Origin: a virus | DNA length: 30,808 bases | IMG/VR virus record: IMGVR_UViG_3300047373_000661 | Coordinates: 1-30,808 of that record | Strand: one strand, 5' to 3' | Shown: in pieces, positions 1-18,615 of the stretch | Position numbering within the stretch: position 1 is the stretch's first letter | Layout: each line of letters opens with the position of its first letter | The notes under the pieces: model-generated | Seen by the model: the letters and a program-made list of their open reading frames with translations, nothing else | Database searches by the model: none | Told to the model about the DNA's origin: nothing | Position numbers and translations under genes: made by a program

Positions 1-1030
1 GATTAACTTGCGAAACAGACCAAATAGGTATATCTAATTCCCTAGCTAATCCTTTTGTGCTTGTATAAATATCATCGATTTCGTCCTTACGCTCACGATT
101 TTTCTTTCTTGATGAAAGAAGATCTACGTAATCAATAAGTACTAAATCTGCTTTAACTCCCATATTTGCAACTTTTGCAATATGTGATTCAATAGTTGAT
201 ATAGTTGCCCTACCTGTTGGGAACTCCTTGATAATAAGTCTACCAGGTAGTTGAGGAACTATTTCTTCTGCCTTTGGTTTTAACTGATCTGTTTTATTAA
301 CTGGTATTTGGGTGAAGAAAGCATCATATCTTTTACCTACATAATCTTCACCCAATTCCAAAGTATAGTGAAGAACGTTATATCCCAATCTAACAGCATA
401 TCCCCCTAATGCTACAAGAGACCACGATTTACCACCTCCAGGATTACCAAAAATAAGACCAAAATCTCCATTTCCCAATCCACCTTGTAATAATGTGTTA
501 ATCCTTTCCCAAGGAGTAGGTATAGTCGTACGAGAATTTTCTCGATAACGTTCTTCGATATCTTTATTATATTCATGTCCTACGTTTTTATCTTGACCAG
601 CTTTAAGAGCACTATCAACGAGATGTCTGATTGCCTCAAAGTCTCCTGCTTTTAATAAGTCAACTGATGACATTAATGCTTTTTTTAATTGTTGGTTTCT
701 ACAAAAATTAGTGAATTCCTCCTGCACATATTTCAAATCTTCATCAGATGATACATAGGCTAATTTTAGTTGTTCTTTAATAGATAATTGTAATACATCA
801 TTATCTACTTTTTGTAACTCAATTTTTAATGTTTCTAAAGTAGGTGTTGTATGATACTTATCATAATATTTAAGTATCTCTTTAATTACCCATTTATGAG
901 CATTATTTTCAAAAAACTCATCAGAAATAATATCATGTATATTTGTTAAAAACTCTTTATGAGTTAACAATGATGATATTGCTTTTATCTGAAAATCTGG
1001 TCCGTAATTATTTAATGATTTTAATGTCAA
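1..1030 (-). CDS. 41: Replicative DNA helicase gp41 (DnaB-like), N-terminal part, partial at left edge
   Basis: Hexameric 5'-3' helicase of the replication fork. The frame is open from 1030 to the window edge, giving about 343 residues. Walker A is GNPGGGKSW (Lys201), Walker B is VLIDYVDL (Asp300), and the last visible residues PIWSVSQVN form the DnaB-family motif with the conserved Gln. The N-terminal region is helical as in DnaB/gp41. No ATG is available: an in-frame stop lies two codons upstream of TTG at 1028-1030, and no Met codon occurs early, so TTG in the overlap TTGA with the rnh stop is the best start. The C-terminus lies outside the window (T4 gp41 has about 475 residues). Confidence 0.9.
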   Translation of the reverse strand, partial: MTLKSLNNYGPDFQIKAISSLLTHKEFLTNIHDIISDEFFENNAHKWVIKEILKYYDKYHTTPTLETLKIELQKVDNDVLQLSIKEQLKLAYVSSDEDLKYVQEEFTNFCRNQQLKKALMSSVDLLKAGDFEAIRHLVDSALKAGQDKNVGHEYNKDIEERYRENSRTTIPTPWERINTLLQGGLGNGDFGLIFGNPGGGKSWSLVALGGYAVRLGYNVLHYTLELGEDYVGKRYDAFFTQIPVNKTDQLKPKAEEIVPQLPGRLIIKEFPTGRATISTIESHIAKVANMGVKADLVLIDYVDLLSSRKKNRERKDEIDDIYTSTKGLARELDIPIWSVSQVN

Positions 1031-2067
1031 TTCTTATAACCTTTAAAGTGTGAAAATTTATCGTTTAACCATATTTCTAGGTTTCTAATCATTCCCCCTA
1101 ATTTATCTTCATTATATATTTGAACAAATAATTTAGGTTGTAATTCAGGAAACTCTTGGTCAATAACATAATCTATATATTCTATTTGTTCTGCATCAAC
1201 CATAGGTTTACTTAAATCCATAATTTTAAAACTATTTTCTAATTTTACTCTATCATGAACTATCCTAGAATATACAACATGTTCTTTAAATTTCCTAGTA
1301 GATATGTCAAAGATATCTTCTAATGTTAATTCTTCTGTTTGTAATTCAGGGAATTTTTTAAATATACCTTTTTCACCTAATCCTTTTACTCCTGGTATTT
1401 TATCTGAATTATCTCCTAATAATGTTTTATATAAAATAAAATTTTTAGATAATACACCAAATTTTTCTAATACTGTTTGTGAATTATAATATTCTTTTTC
1501 CATTGGTCTATATAATATAATTTTGTCAGTTACTAACTGTACAAAATCTTTATCACTAGATACAATAAAACATGTAGAATTATATTTTTTAACTAATTTA
1601 TTAGATAACACTGCTATAATATCATCAGCTTCTACCTTATCTATTATAGTAGTTTTAACAGGTAATAATTTTAAATACTGGATTAGACGTACTATTTGGT
1701 CTACTTTAGCATCATGTTCATCACCTAAATCTTCAAATACCTCCCAATTAGTAATTCTTTGTAAATCTCTACCTGATTTGTACTCGGGGAGCAAATTCTT
1801 TCTATTAGTAGAAGAACCTGCTCCATCGAATACTACATAAACAGATGTTGGTTGGGTTTGATTTATTAAAGCACCCAAACTACGAAGAAATCCACCTAAC
1901 CCACCAATGTGAACTCCATCAGGATTAACCATATTTAACATTGCAAAATTCCTAAAAAATAGATTTAATCCATCTATTATAAGAACCTTATCATGTTTTT
2001 TTAAAGTTGGTTCCTCCCTTTGCTCCTGGACCTCGTCCAATAGCTTAAATAATTCTTTATGCTTCAT
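1027..2067 (-). CDS. rnh: 5'-3' exonuclease / RNase H (FEN-1 family, T4 Rnh-like)
   Basis: Flap/5'-nuclease that removes RNA primers from lagging-strand fragments. Acidic metal-site residues are visible in order: Asp32 in LIIDGLNLFFR, Asp81 in VFDGAG, EADD (146-149), SDKD (171-174), and the helix-3-turn-helix region GDNSDKIPGVKGLGEKG (218-234) that binds DNA. The conserved lysine/arginine of the arch lies in YKSGRD (96-101). The 346 residues compare with about 305 in T4 Rnh. The gene sits between uvsX and the gp41 helicase and its stop overlaps the helicase start (TTGA), suggesting coupled translation. The basic-acid split N-terminal 25 residues are a short extension of unknown role. Confidence 0.92.
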   Translation of the reverse strand: MKHKELFKLLDEVQEQREEPTLKKHDKVLIIDGLNLFFRNFAMLNMVNPDGVHIGGLGGFLRSLGALINQTQPTSVYVVFDGAGSSTNRKNLLPEYKSGRDLQRITNWEVFEDLGDEHDAKVDQIVRLIQYLKLLPVKTTIIDKVEADDIIAVLSNKLVKKYNSTCFIVSSDKDFVQLVTDKIILYRPMEKEYYNSQTVLEKFGVLSKNFILYKTLLGDNSDKIPGVKGLGEKGIFKKFPELQTEELTLEDIFDISTRKFKEHVVYSRIVHDRVKLENSFKIMDLSKPMVDAEQIEYIDYVIDQEFPELQPKLFVQIYNEDKLGGMIRNLEIWLNDKFSHFKGYKN

Positions 2068-2072
2068 AATTA

Positions 2073-3146
2073 CTATTCTGGTTCTTTCTCGAAATGAGAA
2101 ATATCTTGAATTTCTTCTCCTTCTTCAACTATATCAAAATTCATACCTCCTAATATTTCAGCCCATTCCTTAGCATTGTCCTCTTTGTATTTTTTAAGTT
2201 GATTTGGATCATCCAATATAAACCCATGAGGTGTCATTACTATTCTACCTCTAGTGGTAACACCATTAATGTGATTTTTATCAATTTGTAAGTTAGCTCG
2301 TTTAGCAAATTCTACCTGCTTACCATCTTTAATTGCTTTAATTTTAGATGTACCTGCAGACATAATATTACCAAATGTAACTACAAATGTTGAATCAAAC
2401 CACATTGCATAACCACCCTTATTCATTAATTTAGGTTTACCCATAGGTGATTCTGGTTTTAATGTCCAAACTTTATTAACACAAACTAATGTATTAGTAT
2501 AAGGTGATGACTCTTTTCTTGATAATGTAATTTTTTGGTTTACATTATTTCCAAATTGAGTTGACATAGCACCTGCATTCCATTCGTTGTTGTTTTTATT
2601 TGATTTAAGTGACATTTCACAAGGTACCGAACCAATACTATCCCATAGGAATAATAAGTCATAAGGTAAATTACCTCGTTTTTGTTCATCCATTAAATCT
2701 AAAATAAATCCAGCTACGTCTTCAATAGAATGAATAGTTTCTCTATCAACATAGATAAAATTACCATCATAATTGGTAATTTCTCCATTTTCATCTCTTT
2801 CTACTTTGATGTCTAATCCCATTTGGATTGCATGTTCCCAATTCCATTTCATCTCTGTGATAATAAAAACAGGCAGTATCCCGTTATTCTGGGCAGATAC
2901 TGCTGCTTCTATCATCGCTGTTGTTTTACCAGTGTCCGAATGACCTCTAAGTAAAACAATGTGCCCCATAGGGATACCAGGTATTGAGGTAACTTCCCTA
3001 AAGGCAGGAGAAAGGGGAATCCATTCTTGATCCTTAAATTTGATATTTTTGTCTAGTCCCTTTTTATTCTTAAAGGCATTCAGATCAAATTTACTCTGAA
3101 TTTCTTTAGAGACTGCCGCCGATAATGATTTCTTTTTTCTCGCCAT
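2073..3146 (-). CDS. uvsX: UvsX RecA-like recombinase
   Basis: ATP-dependent strand-exchange protein for recombination-dependent replication and repair. Walker A is GHSDTGKTT (68-76, Lys74), a probable catalytic glutamate lies in ITEMKW (Glu98), and Walker B is LLFLWDS (164-170, Asp169). The SMSTQFGNN-like loop region (194-201, MSTQFGNN) and VCVNKVWTLKPESPMGKPKL continue the RecA/UvsX core. The length of 357 residues is close to T4 UvsX (about 391). The C-terminus is acidic (EEGEEIQDISHFEKEPE), as common in recombinases that limit DNA binding. It is packed between gp32 and rnh with gaps of a few bases, consistent with one transcript for recombination proteins. Identification is confident. Confidence 0.95.
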   Translation of the reverse strand: MARKKKSLSAAVSKEIQSKFDLNAFKNKKGLDKNIKFKDQEWIPLSPAFREVTSIPGIPMGHIVLLRGHSDTGKTTAMIEAAVSAQNNGILPVFIITEMKWNWEHAIQMGLDIKVERDENGEITNYDGNFIYVDRETIHSIEDVAGFILDLMDEQKRGNLPYDLLFLWDSIGSVPCEMSLKSNKNNNEWNAGAMSTQFGNNVNQKITLSRKESSPYTNTLVCVNKVWTLKPESPMGKPKLMNKGGYAMWFDSTFVVTFGNIMSAGTSKIKAIKDGKQVEFAKRANLQIDKNHINGVTTRGRIVMTPHGFILDDPNQLKKYKEDNAKEWAEILGGMNFDIVEEGEEIQDISHFEKEPE

Positions 3147-3148
3147 AC

Positions 3149-3982
3149 TTAGAAGGGTAAATCATCAGCTTTTTTATCATCAAATAGGGAATCAAATTGG
3201 TCTGTTTTGTTTTGTTTAGCTTTTGAAGTATCTAAAGAAAACTTAGAACCCTCAGGTTGTGAAGTGTCCTCAAAATCATCATTTGGTTCTGAGATAATAG
3301 CACCTTCTTCTTCAGTTTCAGGAGCTAACCATTTTTCTAATGCTGATTTCATTTCATCAAAATTGAATTTCTTAAATTCAGCATTTGGATCAGGTTGTTC
3401 TTTAGTCCATTTTTCTACTAAAGCAGCATCTTCACTTAATGGGGTTTGTTTTAATCTAACCCTAACAGATGATTTGTTATATTGTGTTCCTGTAGATTCA
3501 GGTCCTACTGTTTCAATAGTAAGATCTCTACCGCTTGCAATATCAGTATAATCACCAATTTCCTCATCTACAGCTAATGAAAGTAATTCTTCATAAATTA
3601 ACTTTCCAAATTGCCATAGTCTAACACCTTTATCTTCTTCACCTCTAACAATTACAGGAACGAAAATACGTGTTTTAGGGTCTAATTTCTTAGCTAGAAC
3701 ATAATTTTCTTTATTATATTCTTCTCTAAGCTTACTAGCGAATAAAGCTATAGGATCTTTTTCACCATAATTTAGGGGAGAAAGCATAACTTTATTTGTA
3801 ATACCATAATAGAACTTAAGTTCCGTAAATGGGTTTTTGTTGTTGAACGCGCTAGGCACAATTCTAATCTGTTGTTTACCTACAGTAGGTCTCCAAAACG
3901 TCAAACTATAATCTCGTTTTTGGCCTTGGGGTTGTTTTTGTTGGAGAGTATCCAACTTCTGTTTAAGCATTGATAAATCCAT
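3149..3982 (-). CDS. 32: Single-stranded DNA-binding protein gp32
   Basis: Binds and organises single-stranded DNA for replication and recombination with UvsX and gp41. The 277-residue protein follows gp32 architecture: short basic N-terminal segment, OB-fold core (about 24-190) with RIFVPVIVRGEEDKGVRLWQ and FGKLIYEELLSLAVDEEIGD, matching the T4 region around VFKYRFGKKIWDKI, and an acidic C-terminal tail. Unlike T4 gp32 (zinc bound by His64, Cys77, Cys86, Cys90) the protein has no cysteine at all, so it lacks the zinc ribbon. Its last residues, DDLPF, resemble the DDIPF tip of bacterial SSB. The structured leader upstream suggests autoregulation. It lies two bases before the uvsX start. Confidence 0.9.
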   Translation of the reverse strand: MDLSMLKQKLDTLQQKQPQGQKRDYSLTFWRPTVGKQQIRIVPSAFNNKNPFTELKFYYGITNKVMLSPLNYGEKDPIALFASKLREEYNKENYVLAKKLDPKTRIFVPVIVRGEEDKGVRLWQFGKLIYEELLSLAVDEEIGDYTDIASGRDLTIETVGPESTGTQYNKSSVRVRLKQTPLSEDAALVEKWTKEQPDPNAEFKKFNFDEMKSALEKWLAPETEEEGAIISEPNDDFEDTSQPEGSKFSLDTSKAKQNKTDQFDSLFDDKKADDLPF

Positions 3983-4509: not shown

Positions 4510-5758
4510 AACCTTGTTTTATTTTTATGTTTAATTTATATTTATTAAATACACTATGAATTTCATCCATAATTTCTTTTTCATCTTCGCTATAATCAAA
4601 TAAAAATGAATCATATGTATATAATATTAATTTTGTTTTTTTACCTCTTAATATACTAAATATATCCCACAGTATACGAACATTCATTGACGTCTCCAAG
4701 TTTTGTAACAAATAATTAAATAATTTTTGCGGATTCATTTCCTTATAATAATCTCTTTGATAAACGTAATTTGAAATCGGACACACAATATCCGCTCCTT
4801 GATAAAAATCGAGCCACATATTATGTATATACTCTTTTATTTTTTTAAAGTATTCCAGATGCTCATATTGTTGGAATACACCTCCGTATAATTGTTTGAA
4901 TGTTAGTTCTTTTGATTTAGCATAACTTACCTTGTATAATTTCGCAAGATGATCGTGAATATCCACAGTGGGAAAATTATAATCAATGAGACGACAAGAC
5001 AAACTAGGATGATAAGCAGAAATATCAATTTCATAAAGAATATCATTAGTTGGTATAAAAGATTTCCTACATCCATTTTCTTTGTTAAGTGCTGCATAGT
5101 TTACTCCTTTAAATTTATTTGATGGTCTTGTTGTTAATGTTTTTAAGTTATACTGACTGTAGACTCGTTCACCATTAACGGGATGAAAATGTTGTTCGAA
5201 TCTAGGTACGTGTATTCGTAATCCACTTCGCTCGAGAGCGTTGAATACCACGGATACTCTACTGTTAAAGAATTCATCATAATTAGTTTTTTCTTTGTTA
5301 ATATTGCTTTTTAATTCTAAAAACGTGTTCTCACACATTTCATAGTGTTTAACTACCGGTACCATTACATTAACATTAGGTTTATCCTTATGTTTATAGT
5401 ACAATATTTCATGTGCTTTAGTTAATTCCGGTATATACGTATTAGGTGGTACATTTATGTCATAAAGAGCTTTTAGAGGAAAATAATGTAATATTTCCTT
5501 TTTATCCCTACAATATAATACTTCAAATTTATTTAATAATCGGTCTATACCCGTTTTTAACACACTTGATGTCTCGCTATGAGACAAGCATAACATATAG
5601 CCTTTAGGTGCGTTAATTGGTCTAATATACACCAAACTTACGGTATTTTCAACCGGGTGCACATTATGACTACTTGGTATAACTTCTATATAAGCTTTTG
5701 TATAACCACTATTTAATAAAACCTCGAGTTGGTCTCCCTTCTCTATTAACCAATACAT
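4490..5758 (-). CDS. Compact family A (PolA-type) DNA polymerase
   Basis: A 422-residue template-directed DNA polymerase. Palm/finger motifs can be read: TLTTRPSN (208-214) parallels the TGRLSS motif; FIPTNDILYEIDISAYHPSL (234-253) is motif A with Asp245; KELTFKQLYGG (283-293) is the O helix with Lys283, Phe287 and Tyr291 at the spacing of E. coli Lys758, Phe762 and Tyr766, although the position of Arg754 is occupied by Tyr279; LFNYLLQNLETS (346-357) resembles the Q-containing NxPIQ motif; and LILYTYDSFLFD (377-388) is motif C with Asp383 in YDS rather than HDE. The first 150 residues show no clear 3'-5' exonuclease acidic motif. It heads the replication cluster and overlaps the next gene by 20 bases. 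T4 itself uses a family B enzyme (gp43). Confidence 0.8.
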   Translation of the reverse strand: MYWLIEKGDQLEVLLNSGYTKAYIEVIPSSHNVHPVENTVSLVYIRPINAPKGYMLCLSHSETSSVLKTGIDRLLNKFEVLYCRDKKEILHYFPLKALYDINVPPNTYIPELTKAHEILYYKHKDKPNVNVMVPVVKHYEMCENTFLELKSNINKEKTNYDEFFNSRVSVVFNALERSGLRIHVPRFEQHFHPVNGERVYSQYNLKTLTTRPSNKFKGVNYAALNKENGCRKSFIPTNDILYEIDISAYHPSLSCRLIDYNFPTVDIHDHLAKLYKVSYAKSKELTFKQLYGGVFQQYEHLEYFKKIKEYIHNMWLDFYQGADIVCPISNYVYQRDYYKEMNPQKLFNYLLQNLETSMNVRILWDIFSILRGKKTKLILYTYDSFLFDYSEDEKEIMDEIHSVFNKYKLNIKIKQGYDYDFR

Positions 5759-5793: not shown

Positions 5794-6447
5794 TTAGTAG
5801 CCTCCACTTGATTCTCTATTTTCCTTTACTTCTTTTACTACTTTTGGTTTTAAACAATATTGGGAAAATTGGTTTTTAAAGTAATTAGTAAACCCATAAG
5901 CTCTATTTCTAAATTCTACTAGATCTACTACATTTTGATTTATTGTATAAATATCTTCTTCTTTACCTGTTAAATTCCAATTTAATTGTAATGCTTGATA
6001 ATACTGCCATTGAACTTGGTTATTTTTACCATTAAATAAATCAAATTCTTTTTTATCAACTTCTAAAAATATTTTTTTAGTTATATCATTTAAAAAATAC
6101 CTTTGATACTCTCCTAATTTATAGTCTGATTCGGTTGGTTTTGGATATGATGATACTGGTGGTCTAGGTGATGGTGTGTTTATACCTCTTCCAATTGAAG
6201 AAAAATAAGCATCATCAATTATATAATAAGATTCAGGTAATGGTTCACTATCTTTTGATTTATCTACTGGAGCGGATTGATATAATTGTTTATTTGGTGG
6301 GTCTTGTGGGTTTTTACCTGTATAGTATTTACCATCAGATGTTTTAAAATAAGGTCCCTCATATTCTTGACCATTATCAGGATTAGTTAACCCATCACCT
6401 GGATTGGCTTTTAAATTTTCTATTATTTGTGATTTTGGATAATACAT
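5794..6447 (-). CDS. Putative virion structural protein of the baseplate module (217 aa)
   Basis: A 217-residue protein with a Pro/Gly/Asp-rich N-terminal half: MYYPKSQIIENLKANPGDGL, EYEGPYFKTSDGKYYTGKNP (about 28-47), then proline-rich linker (about 90-105) and a helical C-terminal half with LGEYQRYFLNDITKKIFLEV and WQYYQALQLNWNLTG. The N-terminal Tyr/Gly pattern resembles short repeat units seen in structural proteins of environmental phages, but I cannot name the family. It is coupled to the hub gene by TAATG, implying it acts with the hub or baseplate. It is the last gene of the tail module before the replication genes. Confidence 0.65.
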   Translation of the reverse strand: MYYPKSQIIENLKANPGDGLTNPDNGQEYEGPYFKTSDGKYYTGKNPQDPPNKQLYQSAPVDKSKDSEPLPESYYIIDDAYFSSIGRGINTPSPRPPVSSYPKPTESDYKLGEYQRYFLNDITKKIFLEVDKKEFDLFNGKNNQVQWQYYQALQLNWNLTGKEEDIYTINQNVVDLVEFRNRAYGFTNYFKNQFSQYCLKPKVVKEVKENRESSGGY

Positions 6448-9400
6448 TAACTTCCTAATATTCTTGTTATTTCTCCTTTTGCAGATAATGTTGCTTTTCT
6501 AATAGCTAAATCAATAAATCTACTTTGATTTCTATCTACTTTTTTAATTAAAGCTGAACCTGTTCCAATTGCTATACCGCCCTCCCCATCATCATAATTA
6601 ATAGTAACTCTTACTGGATCTCCTCCTTTAAGTGTACGTCTTTCTGGAGTGATGGTTTCTTTAGCAAATCGACCTTGATACGTAAATGTTTTAACTTGGC
6701 TATTTTCAAGTTCAGTATTTTGTGTATCCCAATCTTTTTGTGGTTTGCCTGGATTGTCTAATTCAGCATTTGATAGTGCTACATCTCTATTAAATTGTAC
6801 ATAAAAATGAACTGAATCAATATAACCTGAGAATGAACCACCCCATTTAATTCCAGATTTTTCAGCCATTGCAACAATACCTTGTTCAATCCATGGGTTT
6901 CTTTCTTTCTTTTTAAATGTTCTACCTTTAGGGTCTGTAACATTAAAATCAACACCTGCTGCATAATTATGTACAGATCTACCAGGTGCGGCATTTTTAG
7001 GATTTTCTGCTTTTAATTCTACTGATCTTGAGAATGGTCTAAATACTGCATTTATAGTAATAACATAATCATCGTATCCTCCATCTCTTAAACTTTCATA
7101 GAAATTTCTAAAGGCATATTGAATATTTTCATTCATGTAACTAACGGCTGTTTCTAATGAAATTTCTTTTCCATATGTTGCATCATTTACCTTTTTACCA
7201 CTTACCGTTCTATTATCAATAAATTTTAAAGGTTTATCTCTTTTTAAATTAAATGGATCAATTGGACCTTCATTAGCTGGAATGTCGTAAGCTCCCCCTT
7301 CGGTACCTACATAAGTCATATTAGTAAATGGAGATTTTGGTGTATCCTGAACATTAGGTACAGCTAAAGTACCAATACTAGTTTGCCAATTGTTATCACT
7401 AATAGAGTGATCTACTTTATCAATTATAAATTTTACTGCTTTATCATAGGCAGGAGGTAAAAAATCTTGTCTTATTTGGCAACCATTATAAATTTTAATA
7501 CCAGATAATCCTTCCATAGTCATACCTAGCTTAATTGGTATAAAACCAGCTTTGTTAGAAGGTATTCCAGTTTCAACAAATATTTTTTCATTTTGTAAAT
7601 TTACATAACCATTAAAACTTTGATGTCCTTCACTTACAAAATCATCAGCCATAGTTGTGTATAAAGTTTCATCATCATCAAATGTTATAGTTTTAAAATC
7701 ACCATTATCCATTGGAACTTTTACTGTACCACCAAAAGCTCTAACTAAATATAATTGATAATTACTATTAAATTGTTCAGACTCATCATAAAAATAAGCT
7801 TGTATAGCAGAAAATGCTTTTCCTAAAGAAGTTGCAGCAAAAGCTTTACTTATAATTTCTTTTACTTGAAGGGCAATATCAGTTGTTTTTGCTAGAGTTA
7901 AAAATGTGTAATAAGTTACATTTTCAAAAGTTACTCCCTTATAAGGTACATCTTTTCTTATAGTAAGTTCTGAATTTCTTTGTTCATTGTCTTTTTTATT
8001 ATCCCCAAAAATACCAAAACTATCTTTTTTAACATTTCTAGTAAAAACTAAGTTTAATACTTCATTTCTTGTTCTTTCTCTAAAAAGAGAAATTCCCCCA
8101 AATAAGGCAGAACCAACAGCTTCTCCAGTTGAAAATTCTGCAGATTCAGGAGCATTATCCCAAGCATTATCCTGTTCTTCAGTACCTAGGTTAGTAAAAT
8201 CAGCTCCTGGAGTGTCAACCATTGATGGGTTTGTTCTGTCCATTAAACCAATGTTCCATTTAGAAAATGCAGTTGCATCTGTATTTCTTGTTGAACTACC
8301 TTGAGCAGTAGCTCCGATTGATATTTGACTAGCTAAATCGGGTGTAATGCTGGTTTCAAAACTAAAATCAGTTATAAAATTAGATGAACCAGACATATTA
8401 TAACCAAAAATTTCAAAACTAGGAGGTGAATCTAAACCTAAATTAGGTATTGGATTTTGGTCAATAATAGTAAGTACATTATCATCTTTTACTATAACTT
8501 CTAAATCTATAACATTACCCAAAGCTTTATTAATCCCAGTAACTATCTTAGTCATAAATTCAAATAAACTTAAATCACCCTTTTTATCTGTTTGTTGTAA
8601 AACTTCAGCTATAAATTCAAAATTTAAATAAATATTCATTACCCTTCCATAATAACAAGGACCAGAATTAAAAGTAAATTGTTTTAAATCATCTAAATAT
8701 TTAGGTATTAAAAGTTCATCAATTTGACTTTCACTACCATAATAAAATTCAGGTTTAATTAAGCAAACTTTTGGATCTAATGATATTAAATTAGGATAAG
8801 TATTACATATATTAGTTATTTCATCATTTTCTATATTTAATACTAATTCTGGGTTATCTTTAATGATTAAGGGAATAATTCTATCTCTTAAAATATCTAA
8901 TAATTGTCCTAAAGTCATAAAATAGTTATAATTAGGCAAATCAATAGAAGGATAATCACCCGAAAAGAAACCATCATAATGCTCTCTAGAATGTTCCCAA
9001 GAAAAGAAAGGACCATTAGAACTAACTCCATCTTTTCTATCTTCCCATTTTAGATCTCTTACTAGTTTATACATGTAATAAGAAATTTGAGAATCACCTG
9101 CTGTACCAACAATTGCAGAATCTTTTAAATCACCTAAAGGTGTAGAACTATACCCAAAAAATGTAAATGTATCATCTTCAATTTGGTTAGCTGAAAGGGC
9201 TAAAACTTTATTTTTAGCTGAAATTGATTCTATAACATCTCCTAAAGTAATTAAATCTATAGAAATATCATACGTACCATCTGGGTTGAAAGACCAATCA
9301 AAATTAGTTACTTTCCCAAAAAAACCATCATAATTGTAACTATATAACTTTCTATAAGTTATTATTTTTTGAAGTATTGAGTTTTGAGTTACTTTAGCTG

Positions 9401-10109
9401 TTTTAAAAAATTCATCTTCAATTAATGTTGTACCAACATGTTGTAATTGACCATTAGTATCAATGTATTTATCAAAACCCCATTCTAACATCATAGTGTA
9501 ACCTAATCTAAGATAAAGTAATTCAATTAAATCAAACTGGAATTTATTATAGGCTTTTAAAGTAACTTTAGCTTTACGAATAGAACCCCTATTAATACAT
9601 TCTATACTACAATCAATTAAACCAGGAGCAGGTGAAAGACCAAAATTGGTACCACCTAAACCATAAGAACTATTATTATATAAGCTATTAGTTTTAGCAA
9701 CTCCAGATCTTGATTCATATCTATCAAAAGTCCCATCTGGTTTAAATTTAACTTCTGATAAAGTATTAAATAATACACCTTTTTGTGCTAATTGGTTACC
9801 TGTAAAATTTTCAACATCTTGAATACCTATAGCTTTTAATCTTTCAATTCCATCCGGAACCCTATCTTCATTAACATCTAAAGCTTTAGGTTCAAAACCT
9901 TTATCTTTTGTAGCAAAATCAACTCTTGTATCTTCTCCAATTACATAAACTGAAGATGCAAGTTTTAACCAAGCATTTCTATTATTTAAATATTGTATTT
10001 GAGCAGGAGTTCTTTTTTGATTAAGACCACTACCATGGATAGATTGTCTTCTTTCTATTTCTAATAGAAGTAATTCATCAAATTGTTCCCCAATTATATT
10101 TCCATTCAT
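6447..10109 (-). CDS. Baseplate hub protein with C-terminal M15 zinc peptidase (tail lysin)
   Basis: A 1220-residue central hub/spike component. The N-terminal region contains SIRKAKVTLKAYNKFQFDLI and YTMMLEWGFDKYID (about 180-215), and later GFIPIKLGMTMEGLSGIKIY (about 850-870), a pattern of gp27-like hub (tube-ring) domains. Residues about 985-1110 form an M15-type peptidase: NAVFRPFSRS, then RSVHNYAAGVDFNV with His1047 and Asp1054, and DSVHFYVQ with Asp1098 and His1101, matching the HxxxxxxD...H zinc ligands of VanY/L-Ala-D-Glu endopeptidases. It should cleave peptidoglycan peptide cross-links or stems during penetration, whereas T4 uses a lysozyme domain in gp5. Residues 1110-1220 are a beta-rich tail. 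The stop overlaps the next ATG (TAATG). Hub orthology is inferred; the peptidase call is firm. Confidence 0.82.
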   Translation of the reverse strand: MNGNIIGEQFDELLLLEIERRQSIHGSGLNQKRTPAQIQYLNNRNAWLKLASSVYVIGEDTRVDFATKDKGFEPKALDVNEDRVPDGIERLKAIGIQDVENFTGNQLAQKGVLFNTLSEVKFKPDGTFDRYESRSGVAKTNSLYNNSSYGLGGTNFGLSPAPGLIDCSIECINRGSIRKAKVTLKAYNKFQFDLIELLYLRLGYTMMLEWGFDKYIDTNGQLQHVGTTLIEDEFFKTAKVTQNSILQKIITYRKLYSYNYDGFFGKVTNFDWSFNPDGTYDISIDLITLGDVIESISAKNKVLALSANQIEDDTFTFFGYSSTPLGDLKDSAIVGTAGDSQISYYMYKLVRDLKWEDRKDGVSSNGPFFSWEHSREHYDGFFSGDYPSIDLPNYNYFMTLGQLLDILRDRIIPLIIKDNPELVLNIENDEITNICNTYPNLISLDPKVCLIKPEFYYGSESQIDELLIPKYLDDLKQFTFNSGPCYYGRVMNIYLNFEFIAEVLQQTDKKGDLSLFEFMTKIVTGINKALGNVIDLEVIVKDDNVLTIIDQNPIPNLGLDSPPSFEIFGYNMSGSSNFITDFSFETSITPDLASQISIGATAQGSSTRNTDATAFSKWNIGLMDRTNPSMVDTPGADFTNLGTEEQDNAWDNAPESAEFSTGEAVGSALFGGISLFRERTRNEVLNLVFTRNVKKDSFGIFGDNKKDNEQRNSELTIRKDVPYKGVTFENVTYYTFLTLAKTTDIALQVKEIISKAFAATSLGKAFSAIQAYFYDESEQFNSNYQLYLVRAFGGTVKVPMDNGDFKTITFDDDETLYTTMADDFVSEGHQSFNGYVNLQNEKIFVETGIPSNKAGFIPIKLGMTMEGLSGIKIYNGCQIRQDFLPPAYDKAVKFIIDKVDHSISDNNWQTSIGTLAVPNVQDTPKSPFTNMTYVGTEGGAYDIPANEGPIDPFNLKRDKPLKFIDNRTVSGKKVNDATYGKEISLETAVSYMNENIQYAFRNFYESLRDGGYDDYVITINAVFRPFSRSVELKAENPKNAAPGRSVHNYAAGVDFNVTDPKGRTFKKKERNPWIEQGIVAMAEKSGIKWGGSFSGYIDSVHFYVQFNRDVALSNAELDNPGKPQKDWDTQNTELENSQVKTFTYQGRFAKETITPERRTLKGGDPVRVTINYDDGEGGIAIGTGSALIKKVDRNQSRFIDLAIRKATLSAKGEITRILGS

Positions 10110-12733: not shown

Positions 12734-15136
12734 TTATTGAACACTATATAAACCTACTGGTGATATTTGAGGTTTTTTAGCGTTTTGTGTTACTAAAGTA
12801 GCTAATAAGGCATTAGTTTTACTATTATCATTCATTGCTACTGTTCCTGCTGGTGAAGAAACAACATCATTGCCCCTAGGAAATAAATTAGTTCCGGCAA
12901 TAATAGTATCTTTGTTATTTAAAGCAATTGCACCTTCGGGTCCAAATAAAGTTCTATCACCATAACCTGGTTTTTTAGTTGGGGATGAGATTAAATCATC
13001 TGCACTAGCTAATCTTTTAATCAAACCTGCCCCTGCTAATGTAGCTGCAGTTGCTAGGGCAAACCCAGCTGGTCCTGCAAATGAGAAAGTTTTATATGCA
13101 TTCGCTGCCATGTCAGCAATAGCAGTTGCAATCGATTTTGCGAACATAATTCCTAAAATTGCAACTATACCACCTAATATTGGCAATATTAAAGTTAATC
13201 CATCTAACATTAATTTTACAGCAGCTGCAATAGCATTAAAAACAGGAAGTAAAATATTAACAACTGGTTCAACAATTTCCATTACTACACCTGCAATACC
13301 CATAAAAGAATCTAGTACTTTTTTAACTGTTTTTTCAAATCTTTCTGATACACTAGCTTGGTTTTCTAAAGTCGATAGTCCATCTTTAGCAATTTCTTTT
13401 TGGGCTTGGGCTAACCCAACTTCTTCTATTCTTTTATCTAATATAGCTTGTCTTCTTTCTGCTTCTTCTCCTGTTGCTCCCGCTAATTGTTCTTGGGTAA
13501 ATAAAGTTTGAGCAATATCTTCTCTACTCATTCCTAAAGATTTAGCTAAAGCATCTTGTTGAATTCTATTCATTTTAGAAAATTCAGCTGACGTTCCAAC
13601 TTGAGATGATATTTCTTTTGCTAAAGTTGCTAAATCATTATCTAAAGCTGCTTGTCTTGCTTTTTCTAAATTAATATCTTTACCTAATAATAATTCAGCT
13701 TCTAATTCATTAGCAATAGAACTTTCAAAATCAAGTAAACTATCAGCTATTGCATCTACTTGATCTAATTCCATACCTAATGCCTTTGCTGAAGCAACAG
13801 CATCAGCAATTAAAGCTGGGTTTTTCCCAAATGACATAGTTGTTGCAGCTGAAACATTAGCTATATCTTTTAATAATTCTTTTTCATTAAGTAGTACACC
13901 ATTTTGCATTGCTGAAACTTTAGCTTGAGCTAAAAATTCTCCTGTGTTTTCTTTTAAAGATTGTCCATTTGCTAAAGTTAATTGTTGGATACCCATTAAC
14001 TCTTCATTAGTAAACCCTGCTGCTTCTCTTAATTTAGTAAATGTAACTAAATCTTCTTGATTTAACATTACATTAGTACCTAATGTTTTATTTATTTCTT
14101 GTAAGCTTTCTAATAACCCTTGAGAACTAACTAATGAACTTTTTAATTCACCAGAAGATAAGCTTGCAAAAGATCTTTGTAAATCTCTAGCTTCACTTAC
14201 AGTCATGTTCATATTTTTAGCAACTTCACCTGATGTTTTATCTAACATCGTTACTGTTTTTACAATGGCTGTAAATACTGCAGCTGCAATATTAGCTGGT
14301 TTAAAGGCATTAAGTAATTGTGCACCTAATACTTTAGCACCTGCAGCCATACCAGCTAATCCACTACCAGTTTCCATAGTAGCTTCTTTAGCTGCCTCCA
14401 AAGCTTCTTCAGCATCTATAACATCACCAAGAAGGGGTATTTTAGAAATACCTTTTAAAACACCACCAAAAATTCCTAGCTTACTTTCTGCATCTTCAAG
14501 TGCTTTCTTTTGTGCTATTCTTTTTTTATTTTCTTCTTCTAATAATTTTATGTTTTGCTCAGTAAATAAAGCTTGTTGTTGTGCAGTTGATAAACCTTCT
14601 ACTTGTCTATCTAGAGTAGCACTTCTTGTTTTTAATTCTTTTTCAATTGATGCTAATCTTTTTTCATCAAATTCTGCTCCTCCTTCAGCAGCTTCAAGAA
14701 TGGCTTCTCTTTCTTTTTGCAACTTAGACATATTAGTTAAAGTTGCTTTTACATTAGCTACCTCTGCTCTTCCCTGTTTTCCAATATTAACCCTAAGACT
14801 ACTTTTTACTTTTTCAGCTTTAAGAATTGCTTCTTCATTTGCTAAAATTTGTTTATCTAAAGATTTAATATCATTTAAACCAGTTTTTTGGTTTAAAAGT
14901 TCTTTATTAATTTTTTTATTTACACTAAGGAGATTTGAATCAAATTGGTTAACTTTAGATTTGATTCCAACAGATTCTTTTAGAACTTCAATTATACCTG
15001 AAGAAATACTAAGATCATCTTCTTTTACAGCATTACTCCTTTGACGAGCAGCAGCTAGTTCTTTTTCAAGTCTAATTTCTTCTTGTTTGGCAGCATTAAT
15101 TTGGTCCTGCCTTTTTAATTCTTCTTTTGAAGCCAT
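12734..15136 (-). CDS. 29: Tail tape measure protein (gp29-like)
   Basis: An 800-residue protein that sets tail length inside the tube. The N-terminal 250 residues are long charged coiled coil (MASKEELKRQDQINAAKQEE onward); a Gly/Ala-rich hydrophobic segment follows at about 262-300; 300-600 are helical with many Ala/Leu/Glu; and residues about 610-705 contain several consecutive hydrophobic segments (VVNILLPVFNAIAAAVKLML, ILPILGGIVAILGIMF), as usual for tape measures that later act in membrane passage. The C-terminal 90 residues are a soluble tail. The gene follows the gp26-like frameshift pair and precedes baseplate genes. T4 gp29 has 590 residues, so if length scales, this tail is probably longer than that of T4. 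Role is confident, orthology to gp29 likely. Confidence 0.88.
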   Translation of the reverse strand: MASKEELKRQDQINAAKQEEIRLEKELAAARQRSNAVKEDDLSISSGIIEVLKESVGIKSKVNQFDSNLLSVNKKINKELLNQKTGLNDIKSLDKQILANEEAILKAEKVKSSLRVNIGKQGRAEVANVKATLTNMSKLQKEREAILEAAEGGAEFDEKRLASIEKELKTRSATLDRQVEGLSTAQQQALFTEQNIKLLEEENKKRIAQKKALEDAESKLGIFGGVLKGISKIPLLGDVIDAEEALEAAKEATMETGSGLAGMAAGAKVLGAQLLNAFKPANIAAAVFTAIVKTVTMLDKTSGEVAKNMNMTVSEARDLQRSFASLSSGELKSSLVSSQGLLESLQEINKTLGTNVMLNQEDLVTFTKLREAAGFTNEELMGIQQLTLANGQSLKENTGEFLAQAKVSAMQNGVLLNEKELLKDIANVSAATTMSFGKNPALIADAVASAKALGMELDQVDAIADSLLDFESSIANELEAELLLGKDINLEKARQAALDNDLATLAKEISSQVGTSAEFSKMNRIQQDALAKSLGMSREDIAQTLFTQEQLAGATGEEAERRQAILDKRIEEVGLAQAQKEIAKDGLSTLENQASVSERFEKTVKKVLDSFMGIAGVVMEIVEPVVNILLPVFNAIAAAVKLMLDGLTLILPILGGIVAILGIMFAKSIATAIADMAANAYKTFSFAGPAGFALATAATLAGAGLIKRLASADDLISSPTKKPGYGDRTLFGPEGAIALNNKDTIIAGTNLFPRGNDVVSSPAGTVAMNDNSKTNALLATLVTQNAKKPQISPVGLYSVQ

Positions 15137-15160: not shown

Positions 15161-15487
15161 CTATTTAAAACTACTTTTACCTTTGAATTTTTTAAGGTTT
15201 TGTTCTGCGGTTTTGTATTGGTGGGAAGCTTTAGCAAATTCTGGGGCATTTACTTTACCATCTGAGGAAACTAATGTTTGTTTACCTTTACCTTCGTATG
15301 CTTCTTTTTGTTTTTTATTTTCTTCTTTGTAGTAATTATCAATTTCAGAAAATGTAAATTTTCTTAACCAAATCGGCATATTATAAATGGTTTCAAAATC
15401 ATAACCACCTTTACCGTGAAATAAAATATTATGGATTTGAGTAAATAAACTCTTCCTGACTAGGGGTGCTGCCTTAGGCGTCAGGCC
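15161..15487 (-). CDS. Frameshift extension of the gp26-like gene (GT-type C-terminal part)
   Basis: An open frame of 108 codons after the slippery run, starting Gly-Leu-Thr-Pro-Lys and running through HNILFHGKGGYDFETIYN to an in-frame ATG at 15379, then MPIWLRKFTFSEIDNYYKEE and a Lys/Glu-rich tail ending KFKGKSSFK. Joined to residues 1-238 of the frame-0 protein it would give about 346 (or 347) residues. It ends 24 bases before the tape measure ATG. The part upstream of the ATG looks like real coding sequence (mixed hydrophobic/charged with an aromatic pattern), which favours frameshifting over independent initiation at 15379. The alternative is a free 72-residue protein analogous in position to T4 gp28 or a small chaperone. 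Confidence 0.65.
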   Translation of the reverse strand, partial: GLTPKAAPLVRKSLFTQIHNILFHGKGGYDFETIYNMPIWLRKFTFSEIDNYYKEENKKQKEAYEGKGKQTLVSSDGKVNAPEFAKASHQYKTAEQNLKKFKGKSSFK

Positions 15488-16202
15488 AAAAAAAGTTAAG
15501 CCCTATGGGCACACTTACCTCCTCCCCACTATCAACTATATAAGTTAAGTCAATATCTGGCTGTGTGTTTTTAACATGCTCTCTAAAAGCACGAGAATCA
15601 CGAGCCAATAAATAATTATCTACAAATTCTCTAATATCTTTTTTTTCTTCATTTCCATCTATTGATAGAATCATATTTTTTAATCTAGTAGTTAATTCAG
15701 GAGATGAATCTTTATTAACTTTTTTTAATCCACTAATTTCTCTATCAATTGCTTTTTCATCTTTTCCAGTAAGTAATTTATAAGTTAATACTGAACCATT
15801 AGAAGGTAAAGTATAAGAAAACTCATTTTTACCTTGTTCTATAGAGGATTCATCAAATGGTTTATTTTCTAAAGTACTTAAATCAATAGTGTAATTACTA
15901 CCACCTATTGTTACTTCATAATCTTTTCCATATCCTAAAATTCTACATCCTACTAATAAAGCATTTTTATCACCTACTACTAAATCATCAATATTAATTT
16001 TTGAATTAACAATTAATGATTTTAATAATTTATCTAATACAATACCTTTTTGGATATATGATTGGTTAGTTAATATATCTTCTTGTTTAGCAGTCATATA
16101 TTTCATTTCTACTTTTCCAGAAGATAATGGGTTTTCTTTTGGATATACTTTTCCTTTTGAAGGTAAGTCTATCTCTTCAGTGGGGAATTTAAATTCAGCC
16201 AT
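15474..16202 (-). CDS. 26: gp26-like baseplate/tail-assembly protein (frame-0 product, probable tail-assembly chaperone)
   Basis: A 242-residue protein of the T4 gp26 (T4_baseplate) type. The N-terminal pattern IDLPSKGKVYPKENPLSSG, then VEMKYMTAKQEDILTNQSYI (about 32-51) and LDKLLKSLI, is typical; the middle has RILGYGKDYEVTIG, and the C-terminus ends PIGLNFFWPDA. In T4 gp26 is linked to hub assembly. Here the gene sits immediately upstream of the tape measure, the place of tail-assembly chaperones in other long-tailed phages, and its last codons contain a seven-T slippery run leading into an open downstream frame. I therefore infer that it makes a short product plus a frameshifted long product. 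The ATG follows an A-rich leader with no Shine-Dalgarno. Confidence 0.85.
   Translation of the reverse strand: MAEFKFPTEEIDLPSKGKVYPKENPLSSGKVEMKYMTAKQEDILTNQSYIQKGIVLDKLLKSLIVNSKINIDDLVVGDKNALLVGCRILGYGKDYEVTIGGSNYTIDLSTLENKPFDESSIEQGKNEFSYTLPSNGSVLTYKLLTGKDEKAIDREISGLKKVNKDSSPELTTRLKNMILSIDGNEEKKDIREFVDNYLLARDSRAFREHVKNTQPDIDLTYIVDSGEEVSVPIGLNFFWPDA
15488..15494 (-). other. Probable programmed frameshift site (TTTTTTT)
   Basis: In frame 0 the codons are AAC TTT TTT TGG CCT GAC GCC TAA. Seven T residues let tRNA-Phe re-pair with UUU after a +1 or a -2 shift, and the next codon is TGG (Trp). The +1/-2 frame is open for 36 codons before the first in-frame ATG and then for 72 more. The -1 frame meets TGA after two codons, so -1 slippage would be unproductive. 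Confidence 0.65.
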
Positions 16203-16294: not shown

Positions 16295-16783
16295 TTAGAA
16301 GTTTAAGATACAATAATCTGGTTGTACAGTTAATGATAATTCTTGTGCAGCATTTTCATTATCCCAGTTATAATCACCAAATCCAGCTTCTGTAATTAAA
16401 GCTCCTTTAATGATCCATTCAGATACGATATCACCTACTGGTCCTAATACATTAAATGTAAGATCTTTTTTATAGAAATCACTGTAACCATCTCTACCAG
16501 TTACTGATTCATGGTGTAATCTAACCCATTCCATTACCGCTTGAGCTCCTGACGGTGTAATAGGATCAAATAATGTCATTGAAATTGTATTCCAAAGAGT
16601 TTTTCCTTTTACGTATCTTGCAACGTTAATATGGTTTAACTGAACTGTACCTTGTGTTAGTGAAACAGCTCCAACTCCTTTAATTTGGTAAGAAGGAATT
16701 CCATCAACATATAAGATAAATCTATTTTGTTGCTTTGGCTCAAAAGCTGTGTAAAATATTTCGTTTGGGTCTAATATTGCCAT
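16295..16783 (-). CDS. 19: Tail tube protein gp19
   Basis: Subunit of the inner tail tube. The 162 residues match T4 gp19 (163) closely in length. The family pattern is visible: N-terminal FEPKQQNRFILYVDGIPSYQ, the VQLNHINVARYVKGKTLWNT strand pair (about 47-66), MTLFDPITPSGAQAVMEWVR (about 69-88), and a C-terminal AAQELSLTVQPDYCILNF. It lies directly after the sheath gene and before a strong terminator. The gene has its own upstream motif copy, consistent with the high amount of tube protein needed. Identification is confident. Confidence 0.95.
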   Translation of the reverse strand: MAILDPNEIFYTAFEPKQQNRFILYVDGIPSYQIKGVGAVSLTQGTVQLNHINVARYVKGKTLWNTISMTLFDPITPSGAQAVMEWVRLHHESVTGRDGYSDFYKKDLTFNVLGPVGDIVSEWIIKGALITEAGFGDYNWDNENAAQELSLTVQPDYCILNF

Positions 16784-16830: not shown

Positions 16831-18615
16831 TTACGCTGGGAATTCAACTCCTGTTGGCAGTACGTTGAAATCCAAAATTATAAATTCAGCTGTTTTAGTT
16901 GGTTGTAAATAAATCGCACCTACTAATTCGTTTCTATCAATTACATCTGGTGTATTGTTAGTTTCATTCATTACAACTTTAAACGCGTATAATCCTTGTC
17001 TTTGTTGTACTGATTCTAAGTATGGATTAACTTGGCTTAAGAAATTATTTCTTGTAGCTATTGTATTTTGTTCAAATACTAAGTTATCTGATACTTGAGT
17101 TATAAAGCTTTTTAATGTGATTAATAATCTTCTAACATTTACTCTATCTAAAGCACTTGCTCTAACTTGTAATGTTTTCTGTCCAAATACTACAACTCCT
17201 CTTCCTGGGAATGTAGCTATTGGATTTATATTAGCACTATATAAAGTGTCTCTATTACCTGATGTTAATTTTCTTTCAGCTCTTATTACGTTACCTAGCG
17301 CACCTCTAATTAAACCTGCTGGAGCGAACCATGGTTCCGATGAAGCATCAGTGAATGAATATACACCCGGTATAAACGCTGAAGCTGGCGACCAAACCGT
17401 TTGGCCACTTGTCGGATCTATTGATTGTAACCAAGGCCAATAAGTAGCGGCATAACTTGAATCAAATGCTGTTGAACTATTAACTGTTGCAGATACTGTA
17501 CTTCCATATTTTGAAACATCAATTACTGCAATACAATCTTGTCTATTTTCTGCTAATGATACTAAAGAATTAACTTGAGTAATATGAGCTGCATATGTTG
17601 AATCTGCTATTAATCCTGGAGCTACTATAACATTAAAGTTATATTCGTCTTGATTATTCAATAATGAAATTGATTGTGAATAATCTGTTGCAGTTAATCC
17701 TTGAATATTAGTATTACTAATATTTTGATTAAATTTCATTGGAGATGTAGCAGCTTGTACATTATATCCAGTAGCACCAGTAAATGAACCAGAACTTGCA
17801 ACTGGGATAAAGTTTACATAAGGTATATCAGCAACCCCATTCATAGAACCACTTGATGGAGTTCCATTATTGTTAAAGAAATTTGGAGTTGGTTGTAATA
17901 CCTGTTTTACAGAAATATATTTACTTTTGTTTACATAGCTTCCTGAAGCTTGTACATAATAATCTGAACCATCTTGTCTAATATTGTATGATTGGTTTCC
18001 AATTACTTTCTCGATATAGTTGGCAGCAAACGGATCGAGTGATAATTCATTCCATGTTTCTAATATTGATTTTTGGTTTGATGTGTCATTACCTTGTCTT
18101 ACTATTAAAGAGAAAGTACCTGAACCAGTATTAACACCTGAAATTTCCCATCTAACATTATCTAATGAACCAGAATCTAATGTTCCATTAGCTGAGTCAG
18201 TAGCTTGATAGTTATTCATTATAGCACCTTCAGAAATTGTTTGAATCTGTAATGATTCTGAAGTTGCTGTATTCATTATACCTGAATTACCTGAACCTGC
18301 AGTACTTCCTGAAGTAAATGCAGCTGTAAATTCACCATGAGTAACTCTGGTAACTAAAAGTGACGTGCCTCCTTGTCTAAAATAGTTATTAGCTGCTGCG
18401 GAAGTTAAATATCCATACTCTCTAGAAGCACTTTCTACAGTTGTACCAAAAATTGCTTGGTATTCACTAAAAGAAGTAACTAAAGTAGGTATTTCAACTG
18501 GTCCTTTTACAGCCGGTCCTATAATAGCGGCACCAAATTCGACGGGATTTTGCTGGATGAATGATTGATCATTTTCTCTTGCTAATACACCTGGAGATAT
18601 TAATGTTTCTGCCAT
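16831..18615 (-). CDS. 18: Contractile tail sheath protein gp18
   Basis: Subunit of the contractile sheath. The N-terminus (LISPGVLARENDQSFIQQNP) with FGAAIIGPAVKGP, and the C-terminal signature of NINPIATFPGRGVVVFGQKT followed by LQVRASALDRVNVRRL (about 460-497), are characteristic of T4-like sheath proteins, the latter being the conserved sheath core that contacts the tube. The 594 residues compare with 659 in T4; the variable central domain (about 120-330) is Ser/Gly/Asn-rich and probably surface exposed. It is followed by the tube gene with a 47-base gap containing another motif copy. Identification is confident. Confidence 0.95.
   Translation of the reverse strand: MAETLISPGVLARENDQSFIQQNPVEFGAAIIGPAVKGPVEIPTLVTSFSEYQAIFGTTVESASREYGYLTSAAANNYFRQGGTSLLVTRVTHGEFTAAFTSGSTAGSGNSGIMNTATSESLQIQTISEGAIMNNYQATDSANGTLDSGSLDNVRWEISGVNTGSGTFSLIVRQGNDTSNQKSILETWNELSLDPFAANYIEKVIGNQSYNIRQDGSDYYVQASGSYVNKSKYISVKQVLQPTPNFFNNNGTPSSGSMNGVADIPYVNFIPVASSGSFTGATGYNVQAATSPMKFNQNISNTNIQGLTATDYSQSISLLNNQDEYNFNVIVAPGLIADSTYAAHITQVNSLVSLAENRQDCIAVIDVSKYGSTVSATVNSSTAFDSSYAATYWPWLQSIDPTSGQTVWSPASAFIPGVYSFTDASSEPWFAPAGLIRGALGNVIRAERKLTSGNRDTLYSANINPIATFPGRGVVVFGQKTLQVRASALDRVNVRRLLITLKSFITQVSDNLVFEQNTIATRNNFLSQVNPYLESVQQRQGLYAFKVVMNETNNTPDVIDRNELVGAIYLQPTKTAEFIILDFNVLPTGVEFPA

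Follow-up and report, generated by a model that had tools for sequence, protein, structure and literature searches.

Overlapping frames upstream of the tape measure gene

The tail module of the virus analysed here raises a simple question: what is the role of a frame of 108 codons that overlaps the end of a T4 gp26-like gene and stays open almost up to the tape measure gene? In the window (the whole stretch of DNA that was analysed, 30,808 nucleotides) this module lies entirely on the minus strand, in the order sheath, tube, TAC-N, TAC-C and tape measure. The tail sheath protein (16831..18615, minus) was recognized by phrog_23 (E=4e-75), PF04984 and PF17482, and the gp19-like tail tube protein (16295..16783, minus) by phrog_4542 (E=1.4e-21). 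This is followed by TAC-N (15474..16202, minus), the T4 gp26-like short form of the putative chaperone (242 aa), which is read in frame 0 from an ATG at 16202 to a TAA at 15476-15474 and has the 3' end AAC TTT TTT TGG CCT GAC GCC TAA (C-terminus NFFWPDA*). The 800 aa product of 12734..15136 (minus) is a probable tape measure protein, named by its position and length; no family match was found for this candidate, and the equivalent slot is annotated as tape measure in Immutovirus and in Listeria phage LIS04. Elsewhere in the window, a 1220-aa protein (6447-10109) carries, close to the C-terminus (residues ~1042-1103), a D-Ala-D-Ala carboxypeptidase domain of the M15 type, and genes for an exonuclease, a UvsX-like recombinase and a single-strand binding protein (1027-3982) come after the structural genes on the same strand.

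Near the 3' end of TAC-N there is a run of seven T's (15494-15488, minus) followed by GGC CTG ACG. Read past this run, the +1 frame gives FF-GLTPKAAPLVRKSLFTQIHNILFHGKGGYDFETIYNMPIWLRKFTF... and remains open for 108 codons (GLTPKAAPLVRKSLFTQ...KGKSSFK), with its stop at 15163-15161. This extension with its stop codon, TAC-C (15161..15487, minus), resembles the C-terminal tail of gp51 and is separated by 24 bases (15160-15137) from the tape measure ATG at 15136. The -1 frame is shut almost immediately past the T run. A sequence-only reading of the same DNA had described the end of the gp26-like frame, the T run, the 108-codon frame and the 24-base gap with all coordinates and counts right, leaving the minus strand unstated. 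Its proposal of a frameshift of the G/GT type upstream of the tape measure gene is strongly supported by the comparison of relatives.

This comparison, which establishes the frame, the site, the conservation of the site and the homology, points (with a probability of roughly 0.93) to a conserved tail-assembly-chaperone pair, in which TAC-N would come from frame 0 and TAC-NC (frame 0 plus TAC-C, 346 aa encoded) from a programmed +1 shift at a Phe-Phe site. The predicted shift site is TTT TTT TGG C (15485..15494, minus), where the UUU in the P site would re-pair with the overlapping UUU and the next codon would be UUU or GGC. Most ribosomes would read through to the frame-0 stop and produce TAC-N; in a minority, the peptidyl-tRNA on UUU (CUU in relatives) would slip forward by a single base to the UUU or UUC that overlaps this codon, and these ribosomes would continue in the +1 frame to give TAC-NC, with a C-terminal domain that would be the counterpart of the T4 gp51 tail. 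We infer both the slippage itself and its efficiency from the sequences compared. The binding roles are proposed by analogy with lambda G/GT: the N domain would coat the tape measure protein, whose gene comes next, and the C domain, present on the small number of long copies, would recruit the tube protein.

Conservation of the extension and of the slip site

A peptide-based search, made without the FFWPD end, gave a first set of 80 relatives. Among them, the +1 frame was open for 86-106 codons beyond the frame-0 stop wherever the locus was long enough, with the exception of one truncated locus (L057, where the extension is cut after 28 codons, past 2218, by error or decay), and the frame-0 stop itself differed in type and distance. 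With searches started from Immutovirus, Microcystis phage Mel-JY01 and cyanophage Syn9, the loci with the gene rose to 339. At 90% identity these left 203 non-redundant relatives, of which 136 are +1 (the window clade, with the window, Immutovirus and Mel groups) and 67 are -1 (cyanophage-type, the Syn9 group), the extensions of both being joined at the same Phe-Phe codons. Exact DNA-pattern scans gave further sets; the sizes of those from the two patterns for the FFWPD end are lower bounds, given among the matches listed. Among the complete loci of these larger sets the +1 frame was open in 112/112 (among the matches listed) and in 32/32. No locus had an open -1 frame (0/115 among the matches listed, and 0/35). 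Judged from these sequences, the openness of the +1 frame is far beyond chance, even if counting over related sequences within a clade overstates the significance.

The extension is also conserved as protein from the slip codon onward. The comparison of homologues that the sequence-only reading had proposed gave an open +1 frame in all complete loci of the clade, and from the shift site on, already upstream of the internal ATG (15379 in the window), codon position 3 was more variable than positions 1 and 2. The downstream ORF could instead be a separate gene, starting from this ATG or by translational coupling at the frame-0 stop. Annotators of Immutovirus and of cyanophages have indeed called short downstream ORFs, and an ATG at codon 33 or 37 past the shift is frequent. 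However, the first ATG in the +1 clade varies in position, in some cases preceding the site, and is lacking altogether in 11/136; the type and position of the frame-0 stop differ, and the stretch separating the shift from the ATG shows protein-level conservation in the +1 frame. In the window this stretch corresponds to the 36 codons for which a homology search had been proposed, and they are conserved coding sequence; together with the unconserved position of the ATG, this makes independent initiation very unlikely. An assembly or sequencing error, or a decayed gene, has a negligible probability: homopolymer runs are error-prone, but isolate genomes and hundreds of metagenome contigs, independent of one another, share this layout, and no fused single frame was found among the relatives examined. 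Nor are separated or randomly framed downstream ORFs, which had been named as evidence against frameshifting, the pattern among the +1-clade homologues. One relative has a stop inside TAC-N (L009, 2861-3586), attributable to error or decay.

The slip site itself is informative about the direction of the proposed shift. The two codons before TGG in the 136 +1-clade sequences are TTT TTT, TTT CTT, CTT TTT or TTT CTA; Immutovirus immuto, which infects Flavobacterium sp. LMO8, has TTT CTT TGG C. The conservation of the poly-T run holds for TTT TTT (about 110/136), but the homopolymer is broken in the variant sites. A control scan for TTC TTT TGG CCT GAC retrieved 50 relatives at greater distance; in each of those that allowed a judgement the +1 frame was open. 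TTT CTA TGG was found at 4 loci. A perfect +1 re-pairing option exists at one of the two codons in 136/136. For TTT CTA it is available at the first codon only and, by the same rule applied outside the 136, for TTC TTT at the second only; a -2 shift is impossible at either. A slip confined to the first Phe codon was also considered and is ruled out by the 50 TTC TTT TGG loci, where the second codon must serve because it alone re-pairs in +1; either codon appears usable. The A-site codon at +1 sites is TGG or another sense codon.

These variant sites bear on two other ways of joining the frames. A -2 shift, as in Mu, would link them with one extra Phe, and at TTT TTT TGG a P-site tRNA-Phe could indeed re-pair two bases back; there is no such re-pairing at TTC TTT TGG (50 loci) or TTT CTA TGG (4 loci), and yet the same +1 frame is open there. 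The original suggestion of a +1 or -2 slip is thus retained in its first half and abandoned in its second, since those sites give perfect tRNA-Phe re-pairing only in +1; we consider -2 highly improbable. Alternatively, RNA polymerase could slip on the run of seven T's found in the window, as such runs can cause slippage, and give mRNAs of altered length. Relatives with TTTCTTT, TTTCTAT or TTCTTTT, in which no run exceeds 4, share the architecture; this breaking of the homopolymer argues against transcriptional slippage as the general mechanism, which would also leave the absence of T before TTT TTT (see below) unexplained, and we regard it as equally improbable.

The signature of the +1 shift extends to codon choice and to the preceding base. 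Where the slip-site column encodes Phe, the codon is TTT in 133/133 sequences, while the other conserved Phe columns all mix TTT and TTC. In the window, the base preceding the slippery run is C (15495..15495, minus). Throughout the +1 clade a T precedes the site in 0/136 sequences against about 72 expected from codon usage, and T directly before TTT TTT was seen in 0/113, and in 0/115 of a separate DNA-pattern set (among the matches listed); at TTT codons in other places of these genes, the preceding base is T in 23%. No -1 heptamer T TTT TTT occurs at the +1-clade site. At TTC TTT sites, where no -1 heptamer is possible, T does occur (12/35 in the DNA-pattern set). A T precedes the site in 67/67 sequences of the -1 clade, all of which (67/67) have TTC as second codon, giving the heptamer T TTT TTC, a signature that follows partly from how the sites were located, although the unfiltered list agrees. 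Since T plus TTT TTT would make a -1 heptamer, and the -1 frame is closed in the +1 clade, avoidance is the natural reading, and from these sequences the -1 heptamer looks avoided in the +1 clade and kept in the -1 clade. T is also missing in the 23 TTT CTT/CTA cases, where the heptamer argument does not hold; inheritance from TTT TTT ancestors may explain them.

Upstream of the site, the window has a purine-rich tract, GGGGAGGAGG (15518..15527, minus), located 23 nt 5' of the slip run and more strongly conserved in the +1 clade than its amino acids require. An SD-like pentamer is found 20-30 nt upstream in 98/136 +1-clade sequences, versus 32 under synonymous shuffling (maximum 41 in 100 shuffles). 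This distance is unsuited to pairing with a ribosome at the site. There was no enrichment of a prfB-like SD pentamer at 3-8 nt upstream (6/136 versus 5.3 expected). In the -1 clade the pentamer lies 9-12 nt upstream, the classical SD position for -1 sites, in 46/67 sequences versus 21 under shuffling. A conserved downstream structure was sought by folding across the group and none was found. The window has a GC-rich local stem right after the shift site (CCTGAC...GTCAGG, 15450-15486), shared with the closest relatives only; as a stimulator, with a possible H-type pseudoknot involving an upstream TAGGG, it was rejected, being missing in close relatives such as L009.

The T4 gp26/gp51 family and its decoding in other lineages

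TAC-N is a homologue of the N domain of the T4 gp26/gp51 family. It matches phrog_150, labelled 'baseplate hub' (E=2e-7, and down to 2e-25 for isolate relatives), and PF12322 T4_baseplate at E=5.5e-4, below the curated cutoff. The 282 positions of phrog_150 align to T4 gp26 at 14-235 and to T4 gp51 at 13-280, and the frame-0 proteins of several relatives end at position 232-234. The two T4 proteins are homologous to each other by BLASTP and by profile (E=1.3e-18). As for the extension, its direct profile match to T4 gp51, alone or as part of the fusion, is not significant (E=0.4 and 0.046), and a cyanophage bridge is needed. By single hhalign comparisons, the +1 fusion matches the cyanophage -1 fusion at E=2.8e-6 over 268 columns across both parts, and the latter matches T4 gp51 at E=4.2e-12; the corresponding values for the extensions are E=1.5e-5 (+1 versus -1) and E=4.7e-8 (-1 versus the gp51 tail). 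Profile comparison thus indicates that the extension is homologous to the T4 gp51 C-terminal tail, only via the cyanophage 'gp51' step.

The AlphaFold model of frame 0 (pLDDT 91.9) matches T4-like hub and assembly proteins, including gp26 of Aeromonas phage 25, and the model of a T4-like gp51 has extra C-terminal helices beyond the shared domain. Against solved structures there was no match of the frame-0 model at E<0.001; the HK97 chaperone 2OB9 was matched weakly by Foldseek (E=2.0, prob 0.25, TM 0.47 by target). In the tree, T4 gp26 and gp51 group together (98/92) and adjoin the cyanophage proteins, with the +1 clade apart, a position that fits a probable gene duplication in the T4 lineage.

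Both directions appear in isolate genomes. The -1 heptamer stands at the end of the annotated gp26 of P-SSM2, Syn9 and HTVC008M, and the -1 frame leads from there into the gene annotated as gp51. Cyanophage and pelagiphage 'gp51' CDSs (L123 1218-1391, L124 1249-1392, L125 3367-3504) have arbitrary internal starts, with the -1 frame continuous from gp26, and the hypothetical KNV73_gp038 of Immutovirus (L082 4839-4949) is a truncated end of the +1 extension. The annotation can be corrected: these short cyanophage 'gp51' ORFs and Immutovirus hypothetical ORFs are C-terminal ends of probable frameshift products. Open +1 extensions are present in Streptococcus phage GXN1 (at TTC TTT CGT), in Listeria phage LIS04 (at TTT TTT AGT) and in the huge phage LR756508 (TTT CTA TTC). 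Another huge phage, LR756511 (L085, about locus 4600-4870), combines T TTT TTC with an open -1 frame and seems, from this sequence, to use -1; counted with the window group and outside the cyanophage clade, it is the sole -1 exception.

It is possible, if on balance doubtful, that within one phage superfamily the decoding of homologous chaperone genes has changed between +1, -1 and gene duplication at a shared pair of Phe codons, with a codon choice forbidding the other direction and, in the +1 lineage, a new kind of cis element, the SD-like purine tract that lies 20-30 nt before the site. The base preceding the site, with its opposite preference in the two clades, would provide a simple, sequence-readable test of shift direction.

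Comparison with known recoding systems

Tail-chaperone frameshifting is widespread in long-tailed phages, with T4 as the textbook exception. G-T frameshifting has been reviewed as conserved except in T4, with -1, -2 and +1 cases listed (2016 review, PMC5009743). As in lambda G/GT and P2 E/E', the window has two predicted products and overlapping frames between the tube and tape measure genes (the tape measure being assigned by position and length), with the overlapping ORF at a conserved slippery site. Those systems shift -1, whereas the window is predicted to shift +1, without the usual -1 heptamer of G/GT pairs; -1 is the usual direction and not a requirement, +1 and -2 cases being known.

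Shifts of +1 in structural or tail genes have precedents in Listeria phages PSA, A118 and A500 and probably in HSTV-2, described as very likely +1 (PMC5009743). In PSA it is the capsid and tail shaft genes that shift, on CCC codons, and not a chaperone gene; HSTV-2 has an archaeal host. There is a likeness at the level of the codons to E. coli prfB (RF2), where a YUU also slips +1 onto UUU. The prfB shift sequence is CUU UGA C, which the CTT TGG C of the window clade resembles. P-site re-pairing in +1 is common to both; prfB has a stop in the A site, a close SD and autoregulation, whereas the window clade has a Trp codon, no close SD and two predicted products.

The T4-like chaperones (T4 genes 26 and 51) belong to the same family as the window pair and also have short and long forms. 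Tail assembly chaperones of T4-like phages were identified by Vladimirov, Gautam and Davidson (2022, Virology 566:9-15), as cited in PMC10274946 and PMC12846349. According to these citing papers, some T4-like phages have one short and one fused long gene (PMC10274946), and TAC-N genes in such phages can carry poly-T -1 sites (PMC12846349). The recasting of T4 gp26 as a chaperone, which the sequence-only reading had put forward as a change of role, is therefore right in substance and not new; as far as the 2022 work is represented by the papers citing it, what is new is the +1 direction, the codon signature and the purine element lying 20-30 nt before the site. T4 has two divergent genes, its cyanophage relatives probably shift -1 on T TTT TTC and the window clade probably +1 on YTT TGG C. 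With one homologous gene pair in these three states, the evolution of recoding direction would become traceable.
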